NCBI RefSeq assembly: GCF_015062935.1
Contig: NZ_SUTM01000012.1
Coordinates: forward strand, 1-64,000
Direction: 5' to 3'
Source of the DNA: Methanobrevibacter sp.
Lineage (GTDB): Archaea > Methanobacteriota > Methanobacteria > Methanobacteriales > Methanobacteriaceae
DNA: 64,000 nt
The position numbers and the translations under genes were made by a program. The notes under the pieces were generated by a model. It searched no databases and had not been told where the DNA came from. It saw only the letters and a list, made by a program, of their open reading frames with translations. Of the stretch, positions 31,566 to 33,928 are shown piece after piece; the stretch's first letter is position 1, and each line of letters begins with the position of its first letter.

Positions 31566-32189
31566 TTAATGTGGAACGTGATTAGTGATATAATTGAATA
31601 CTCCACGAACTCCTGATACAAATCCGTTGTATTCGGTATTGTGGATATTGCTCATGTCATCTTCAATACGGTCATCTATTTCCTTAACGAATGTTGTATT
31701 GTTGTAGTCGGCTGTTGTGAAGTAGTGGACCTGAATTGAATAGTTTGTATCCTCTTTTTGGAATACGTAGTTTACTCCAATATGGTTCCAGATTTCATCA
31801 GTATCTCTTGATGGATTTGAGAAATATTGCTTGGAAACATTAACTCCTGATATAGTACTATTTTCATTTTTTAAAACTTTATATCCGCCATTTTCCATTG
31901 ATTTGAATTTTGATACTGATAATGAAGTAATATGGTCTTCCGGCCAGTCATCCCAATGGTCAATGAAAACATATCCATTTGTTATTGCATGCGGGGTTTT
32001 GGATTGGTTTGTTAAATTCAATTCGTCTGTTGAATTCCATGCTTGTGGAACGACAGCAATACTGTGTCCAAATTCCACGGTGTCATCAGTTTTAAAACTT
32101 AAGAAACTGTTTATTCCGTTAATGTTAATTGCTAGGAAAATGATAATGACTATAATTATCACTGCACGGATTATGTCTTCTCGCCTCAT
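31566..32189 (-). CDS. Membrane-anchored hypothetical protein
   Basis: 207 residues. An N-terminal helix (about 8-24) anchors an outward-facing domain of about 180 residues with several N-x-S/T sites and no cysteines. The strand/helix pattern faintly resembles PsbP-type folds. Its ATG overlaps the glycosyltransferase stop by four bases, so it is made with that enzyme and may assist export or binding of its polysaccharide product (inference). Confidence 0.7.
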   Translation of the reverse strand: MRREDIIRAVIIIVIIIFLAININGINSFLSFKTDDTVEFGHSIAVVPQAWNSTDELNLTNQSKTPHAITNGYVFIDHWDDWPEDHITSLSVSKFKSMENGGYKVLKNENSTISGVNVSKQYFSNPSRDTDEIWNHIGVNYVFQKEDTNYSIQVHYFTTADYNNTTFVKEIDDRIEDDMSNIHNTEYNGFVSGVRGVFNYITNHVPH

Positions 32190-33928
32190 TGTTCTTTACC
32201 TCCTTTGTGTACAGTTTTAGACCATTTTCTTTCTTTTCTAGTCATCATAGTGTACATAGTTAAGAAGAACAATGGAATCAAGTGGAAACAATAAATATAA
32301 TATTTAACGAGGTCTTTTATTAATTCTAGAGCTCCTAGTCTATCTCTTACAAGAGCGAATATCATTCCTGGGAAAAATGCAATAGCTGATAGAATACCTA
32401 CTATCACAGGAGCTTCCATTCTGATTAAAGTAACGTTCTGGAAAAAGAACCATGAAATTGCATTAAGTATTGTAATAACGAATCCGAAGAAGATTAATAG
32501 GTTAAAACTGTAAAATGAAATGTGCTCAATAACATTGAATTTTTTCAATAAGGAAATTTTTGATCTTAAAATTTGGGGCAAGTAGACAAATAATGTTTCA
32601 AAGTTTCCGATTGCCCATCTAATTCTTTGTCTATAAAATGATTTCCAATCGGTAACGGCTTCCTGGTAAACTGCACATTCACCGCAGTAACTGATTTTTC
32701 CTCCTTGAAGAATGATTTTAATGGCTAAATTCAAATCTTCAGTAACTGCAAATCCATCCCATTTTCCGCATTCAATTATGGCTTGTTTTTTCACAAACTG
32801 TCCGTTTCCACCTAAAAATCCTGTGTGGCCTAAATTGTCTTTTGCAATTAGTGTATTTCCGAATGTTGTAAATTCTACATGTTGCATACGGGCTAAAAAG
32901 TTTTCATTCTTATTAAACATTTTAACTCTTGTTTGCACGCCGTCTATTTCATCATTTATGTAAGGCATGACAGTTTTCAGGTAATCTGGTTTAATTCTTG
33001 TATCTGCATCAAATACGCCAATAATCTCTCCTCTGGACAATGTCAATGCATCATTTAAAACAAAACCTTTTCCCTTTCCAGATCTAGGAGGGTGTCTTGT
33101 AACGATTTTAACTTGAGGATATTCTCCTTTTAAACTGGATAATATTTCTCCGGTGGAGTCTGTAGAACCGTCATTTACAACAATAAGTTCATAGTTTGGT
33201 TCTCCATCATCATTATGATAATCAAGTTGGCATACGCTTCTTACAGTATCTTCAATTGTATACTCTTCATTGTGTGCAGGAATGAAAATACTGACAAAAG
33301 GATATTCAGAAATAGGTTCTGGCTTTTTCTGTTTTTTAAGACTGACTAGTGAATTAATAAGCATTGCTCCGGTAGGAATTAAAATTACCCATTGCAGCCA
33401 AGTTGCATTTCTGGACAATATTGCCATGATTATTAAAGAAACACAAAGAATCAGAAGTAAACTGGAATCTGATTTTTCAATCAGAAGCTCTGTACTTTTT
33501 TCCTGTAATTTTGATTGAGCCTCTTGGATAGTCTGGATGTTTCTTTCATGCTTTCTTAAAGCTACAGCCATGGACCTTTGAAGTTCATCTTCGTCAAGAG
33601 GTTTAATTAAATATCCATAAGGATTGCTCATTAATAATTTATCGATGGTTTCATTGAATAAATCTCCGATGATGACTATGATTGGAATGTTATACAGTTC
33701 TAAATCATCAGTTAATTCAAGCAAGTCGATTGATTCAATCTCGGAATCTAAAAATATTAGATTTACGGATTCTTCAACTTTTTTGAATATGTCACTTTTT
33801 TCGTAGGCAGAACCTACAAAATCATAGTCATAATTAACTACATATTCTTGAATTTCAGACAGCAATTCCTTATCTTGGCTGATTGCAAAAATCTTTGGCT
33901 TACCTTCGATTAATTCATATTCAGTCAT
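32186..33928 (-). CDS. Receiver domain fused to processive family 2 glycosyltransferase
   Basis: 580 residues. Residues 10-125 form a CheY-like receiver with phospho-acceptor D61 and K109-P110; the usual acidic pair is reduced to one Asp and the switch Thr is replaced by Gly, so it may be a partly degenerate receiver. Two membrane helices (about 155-195) lead to a GT2 domain with PAHNEEYTIEDTV, VVNDGSTDST, the D-x-D motif FDADTRIK, a TED acceptor motif (VTEDLN) and RQRIRWA, the Q-x-x-RW motif of processive polysaccharide synthases. Three or four C-terminal helices complete a PgaC/hyaluronan-synthase-like layout. Encoded 10 bases after the response regulator, it is a likely signal-controlled exopolysaccharide synthase. 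Confidence 0.9.
   Translation of the reverse strand: MTEYELIEGKPKIFAISQDKELLSEIQEYVVNYDYDFVGSAYEKSDIFKKVEESVNLIFLDSEIESIDLLELTDDLELYNIPIIVIIGDLFNETIDKLLMSNPYGYLIKPLDEDELQRSMAVALRKHERNIQTIQEAQSKLQEKSTELLIEKSDSSLLLILCVSLIIMAILSRNATWLQWVILIPTGAMLINSLVSLKKQKKPEPISEYPFVSIFIPAHNEEYTIEDTVRSVCQLDYHNDDGEPNYELIVVNDGSTDSTGEILSSLKGEYPQVKIVTRHPPRSGKGKGFVLNDALTLSRGEIIGVFDADTRIKPDYLKTVMPYINDEIDGVQTRVKMFNKNENFLARMQHVEFTTFGNTLIAKDNLGHTGFLGGNGQFVKKQAIIECGKWDGFAVTEDLNLAIKIILQGGKISYCGECAVYQEAVTDWKSFYRQRIRWAIGNFETLFVYLPQILRSKISLLKKFNVIEHISFYSFNLLIFFGFVITILNAISWFFFQNVTLIRMEAPVIVGILSAIAFFPGMIFALVRDRLGALELIKDLVKYYIYCFHLIPLFFLTMYTMMTRKERKWSKTVHKGGKEQ

Follow-up and report, generated by a model that had tools for sequence, protein, structure and literature searches.

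A possible split response regulator gating a membrane polysaccharide synthase in gut methanogens

In the window, a stretch of 64 000 nucleotides from contig NZ_SUTM01000012.1 of Methanobrevibacter sp., we describe a cassette that can tentatively be read as a response regulator cut in two: pairing in trans between a stand-alone receiver (P0002) and the pseudo-receiver fused to a membrane polysaccharide synthase (P0001) may gate the synthase, and the locus holds nearly all the receivers of two gut-methanogen genera. We rate this reading as a whole at somewhat under even odds. Its sequence basis is the cassette itself, the decayed site of the fused receiver, the intact site of P0002, the affinity of P0002 for the first receiver of double-receiver relatives, co-occurrence across genomes, and purifying selection.

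The fusion gene and its cassette

The original prediction of a receiver joined to a glycosyltransferase (GT), with D61, K109, and the D-x-D, TED, and Q-x-x-RW motifs, is borne out by the open reading frame, Pfam, the AlphaFold fold, and a position check of both receiver residues and all the catalytic motifs listed in Table 1. Residues 16–118 of P0001 match Response_reg at 28.0 bits (E 2.6e-6) in a single-protein Pfam scan, slightly below the gathering score of 30.2, and at 31.9 bits in the genome scan; residues 212–440 match Glyco_tranf_2_3 (PF13641, E 1.8e-27). In the AlphaFold model (mean pLDDT 83), residues 12–126 fold as an entire (βα)5 receiver, and residues 113–172 form a single helix composed of receiver α5, linker, and TM1.

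The enzyme part looks intact, and its motifs are invariant in 14 relatives (37–87% identity to P0001) except at the variable residue of QRIRW. The nearest folds found by Foldseek are BcsA (E 2e-18), followed by hyaluronan synthases and PcManGT. By sequence and model P0001 has the features of a processive GT2 synthase (DxD, TED, QxxRW, and flanking membrane helices), and QxxRW together with the structural resemblance to cellulose and hyaluronan synthases suggests that it may be processive. It shares these motifs and helices, and the GT-A fold, with PgaC/IcaA, BcsA, and hyaluronan synthases, but scores 132.9 bits against the NCBIfam model of PgaC/IcaA poly-GlcNAc synthase (TIGR03937), far below its cut-off of 422.3, and differs from BcsA in that the Pfam scan gave no PilZ match; BcsA-style c-di-GMP control was therefore rejected.

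Table 1. Features of the cassette, in window coordinates
Feature	Coordinates	Strand	Remarks
Histidine kinase P0004	36294..38210	(-)	638 aa, no TM; N-terminal domain, PAS region, HisKA_2, HATPase_c
Histidine kinase P0003	34436..36304	(-)	622 aa, architecture as P0004; overlaps P0004 by 11 bases
Stand-alone receiver P0002	33939..34349	(-)	136 aa; canonical acids/D/T/K
Pseudo-receiver + GT2 synthase P0001	32186..33928	(-)	580 aa, ATG start
Pseudo-receiver of P0001, residues 10-124	33557..33901	(-)	S17, Q18, D61, I87, K109
D61 codon of P0001	33746..33748	(-)	
Helical linker of P0001, residues 125-152	33473..33556	(-)	AlphaFold model
First two membrane helices of P0001, residues 153-196	33341..33472	(-)	Model; hydropathy backs first
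GT-A catalytic core of P0001, residues 205-440	32609..33316	(-)	D253, DAD 307-309, TED 396-398, QRIRW 434-438
C-terminal membrane helices of P0001, residues 466-563	32240..32533	(-)	AlphaFold model
P0005	31566..32189	(-)	207 aa; one TM, then ectodomain

The cassette runs on one strand in the order kinase P0004, kinase P0003, receiver P0002, receiver–GT2 fusion P0001, and P0005, whose ectodomain weakly matches a PsbP/Mog1/LpqN-like fold (Foldseek E 1.6e-4, TM about 0.45). Only 10 bases separate the end of P0002 from P0001, and the start of P0005 overlaps the P0001 stop by 4 bases. A bacterial-type scan for promoters and terminators gave nothing above chance. The order, with P0004 as the first gene, is identical in an initial comparison set of 12 further species (in one, G019, the contig starts inside the second kinase gene), and recurs in most additional own-genus loci examined. 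On the kinase side the cassette adjoins purA, and past P0005, where the contig extends that far, comes an aspartate-aminotransferase-like gene.

Several loci depart from this layout. In G011 (L044) the cassette is in decay: an extra A in an A-run frameshifts the GT gene, and a DDE transposase gene separates two pieces of the first kinase gene. In G034 (L117:2259-3260) only P0005 and the end of the GT are left of it, the rest being deleted, with purA directly after. In a 1396-aa version in G108 (L081:5007-9197), KLD-type repeats that span about 800 residues and probably form a coiled coil come ahead of pseudo-receiver and GT2; an apparent giant receiver fusion in L082 (G033) was discarded as an assembly gap of N that encodes no protein.

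A decayed fused receiver and an intact separate one

In an alignment to CheY, S17, Q18, D61, I87, and K109 occupy the five active-site positions of the fused receiver. The expected loss of the switch Thr stands (I87, then G88), but the acidic pocket is depleted further than the partial loss first proposed, both members of the Mg2+-binding acid pair being gone (S17, Q18) and only the neighboring D19 being acidic. The phospho-acceptor Asp is kept (D61), so this is not an aspartate-less receiver, and the conserved Lys is kept as well (K109). A pseudo-receiver has been defined as a receiver that is short of one or more of the five active-site residues (PMC12632262); the P0001 domain, without three of them, is one by that definition, and to judge from its sequence looks unable to accept a phosphate signal itself. 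The pattern is uniform in the 28 own-genus sequences with a readable active site (P0001 included): in all of them the acid pair has become S/G-x and the switch Thr V or I, while the Asp is kept. The Lys is also gone in four own-genus orthologues (Ala in G002, G101, and G110; Arg in G019). In the sister lineages G069, G132, G133, G140, and G086, Ser replaces the Asp, and the Lys position reads Asp/Glu or does not align; there too a canonical stand-alone receiver adjoins the pseudo-receiver gene, in a similar cassette.

Every complete orthologue examined has the pseudo-receiver domain. Estimates of dN/dS (about 0.15 for the pseudo-receiver, 0.045 for P0002, and 0.083 for the GT core) point to purifying selection on these parts, the values being rough because dS is saturated (medians 1–2). 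Mean identity is 60% for the pseudo-receiver, the fastest-evolving folded part of P0001, versus 80% for the GT core; for P0002 it is 93% among 12 orthologues. The best-conserved elements of the pseudo-receiver are β3, α5, and β5; receivers usually pair through an α4-β5-α5 surface (PMC12632262).

We propose P0002, with its canonical site, as the phospho-acceptor. The original prediction did not mention this intact receiver, given which an unphosphorylated D61 would not undo the coupling of signal to synthase.

The relationships of the two receivers suggest where they came from. In a GT tree rooted on thermophile lineages, all single pseudo-receiver GTs form one clade (96*) nested within forms with two receivers in tandem (REC-REC-GT2). 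In receiver trees, P0002 and its kin join the first receiver, REC1, of the closest REC-REC-GT2 proteins, with support of 96/92 among 75 rows and 99/98 among 33; placing them with REC2 instead costs 16 log units, which the AU test does not formally reject (p 0.08). The linker after the P0001 pseudo-receiver matches the one after REC2. The simplest history for these sequences would be a REC1-REC2-GT2 ancestor that was split between REC1 and REC2, with subsequent decay of the REC2 site. P0002 and P0001 would then once have been fused, which is Rosetta-stone evidence that the two interact.

Two related arrangements deserve mention. The unsplit REC-REC-GT2 proteins of G072 and G073 (L094, L093) have lost the Asp (to Ser) and Thr (to Val) in REC2 only, apparently an independently arisen pseudo-receiver with its REC1 in cis. 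G144 has a canonical REC-REC-GT2 with a stand-alone receiver beside it, so the exchange of cis for trans is not perfect.

Distribution and a near-closed circuit

The four receivers of the own genome are P0002, the P0001 pseudo-receiver, and two in a paralogue, a canonical REC-REC-GT2 of 791 aa encoded with a P0005 paralogue at a separate locus (G000:C2, L043:7079-10683). Nearly all two-component signaling of the organism thus appears to converge on P0001 and its one genomic relative. The paralogue locus also encodes a 200-aa sensorless HisKA_2/HATPase-like protein with its phospho-His kept, for which a small kinase and a ChpT-like phosphotransferase are candidate readings; the same trio is found in G022, G104, and G119. 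A third kinase of the genome, 631 aa and of the same architecture, lies elsewhere (L101:2307-4202, G000:C4), with no receiver gene in the stretch examined.

Across the genus, the fusion is present in 33 of 67 genomes. Receivers are found in 33/33 carriers versus 2/34 non-carriers, HisKA_2 in 33/33 versus 4/34, and P0005 in 31/33 versus 1/34, a co-occurrence evaluated by Fisher test, which ignores the shared ancestry of the species. Of the two non-carriers with receivers, G005 is a MAG with 5% contamination and G115 has the receiver in a CheC-like fusion; a few carriers (G018, G106, G012, G101, and G033) have extra receivers elsewhere. In the second genus, that of G133, all five fusion carriers have receivers, all at the fusion locus, versus none of the 15 other genomes. 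The genus of G048, with 9–12 receivers per genome, has no such closed circuit. In G034 the kinases, the receiver, and the GT have disappeared as a set.

Other receiver–GT2 fusions, for which a search had been suggested, do exist, and belong to a class already published; among 152 genomes of the phylum, full-length matches occur only within the order (GTDB families f1–f3). A further genome-contig scan retrieved only methanogen-type loci, consistent with restriction to the Methanobacteriaceae. The locus also occurs in L140, a record titled “uncultured Bacillales”, where it is probably archaeal contamination of that MAG. In G024 (L119) two such kinases stand side by side at a contig end with no receiver or fusion detected in the genome, probably because of an assembly break.

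Proposed mechanism, alternatives, and precedents

Our best model, to which we assign a probability of about 0.55, is that phosphorylated P0002 pairs with the P0001 pseudo-receiver and switches the synthase, the phosphorylated half acting in trans. The cytosolic kinases P0003 and P0004 would phosphorylate P0002; P0002~P would then pair with the N-terminal pseudo-receiver of P0001, which would take no phosphate itself; and pairing would alter the α5-linker-TM1 helix (113–172), which would serve as transmitter. The synthase would thereby be activated or inactivated post-translationally, with no need for transcription, and its product would be an exported polymer handled with P0005. We favor this model because a formerly fused protein appears to have been split, because the receivers of the own genome have no other output, and because PleD and EpsW~P/EpsZ (below) offer precedents. 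The retention of D61 throughout the own genus, as in a functional phospho-site, counts against it. The originally predicted direct coupling of a signal to the glycan synthase is supported by the conserved cassette, the concentration of nearly all receivers of the genus in it, and the joint loss in one species, but not the idea of the fused receiver as the D61-phosphorylated switch, three of its five catalytic residues being gone.

The pseudo-receiver might instead be structural, self-dimerizing, or ligand-binding and never meet P0002, which would then act on the kinases or on another protein, the GT being regulated otherwise, for example by abundance. Several bacterial pseudo-receivers do work without partners or bind small ligands (PMC12632262), and co-transcription alone could explain the cassette; yet we judge this unlikely, given that the domain with which P0002 groups is, in relatives, part of the same GT protein, that no other output candidate exists for the own-genome receivers, and that G034 lost kinases, receiver, and GT jointly. 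Phosphorylation of the fused receiver at D61 by the neighboring kinases, switching the GT in cis with P0002 as a phosphate sink or intermediate, would account for the presence of D61 in all own-genus sequences examined and of K109 in most, and the canonical REC-REC-GT2 relatives very probably do act in cis. This seems to us more doubtful still, because no own-genus sequence examined retains either metal-binding acid or the switch Thr, the Lys is lost in G002, G101, G110, and G019, and the Asp itself is lost in a sister lineage that keeps a similar cassette. That the domain is a functionless, decaying relic on a constitutive GT is highly improbable: its rate of evolution, the fastest among the folded parts of P0001, and the frameshifted GT and interrupted kinase gene of G011 would fit, but a dN/dS of about 0.15, an intact (βα)5 fold, and retention in 28 own-genus sequences, with no complete orthologue examined having dropped it, do not.

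Trans pairing, the model that we prefer, has to be placed among known systems. The REC-BcsA and REC-REC-BcsA architectures were reportedly published by Galperin in 2006. REC-BcsA and REC-REC-BcsA response regulators of the Methanobacteriaceae (MTH_548, T2GID5) were described in 2018 (PMC5847659), so that with publications in 2006 and 2018 we do not present the receiver–GT2 fusion as a novelty. P0001, a receiver fused to a PF13641-type GT2 by Pfam and fold, fits this class, which as treated in the part of the 2018 paper considered here shares with our proteins the receiver or receivers on a BcsA-like GT2 (PF13641), the archaeal family, and both single and double layouts; nothing there concerns a pseudo-receiver state, a REC1 gene split off on its own, a conserved cassette of two HisKA_2 kinases plus P0005, or receivers reserved almost entirely for this module in two genera. 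A literature search on MTH_548 returned only Galperin et al. 2018 (PMC5847659), and the main texts of the literature searched hold no description of the pseudo-receiver state, the fission, or near-exclusive receiver use by the module. Outside the host-associated genera, the neighbors of the long forms (TPR, PolX-like polymerase, MutS-like, U32 peptidase, and AMP-binding) give no glycan clue.

The Caulobacter protein PleD is a receiver–pseudo-receiver–diguanylate cyclase (PMC12632262), in which a phosphorylatable receiver acts on an adjacent pseudo-receiver that carries the enzyme, as we propose here from fission and precedent; here the phospho-receiver would stand apart as its own protein, and the enzyme is a GT2 in the membrane, the homology having been compared at the receivers only. 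In Myxococcus, the stand-alone receiver EpsW~P activates the sugar transferase EpsZ (PMC12802240), a likeness to the post-translational control by a stand-alone phospho-receiver proposed here, but EpsZ, a phosphoglycosyl transferase, serves a Wzx/Wzy pathway, whereas the partner here is a GT2 synthase with its own receiver.

According to a 2025 review, no functional study of an archaeal pseudo-receiver is known (PMC12632262), and the locus bears on the open question of how pseudo-receivers switch. It offers a natural experiment in which one synthase comes in three states: two canonical receivers in cis, a cis REC2 that has decayed (G072 and G073), and a REC1 supplied in trans. It further points to a way in which methanogens could place a polymer synthase under phospho-signaling control, and to a control point for surface glycan in rumen Methanobrevibacter. 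If the model is true, the locus, holding nearly all the receivers of two gut-methanogen genera, would be the main output of two-component signaling in both.
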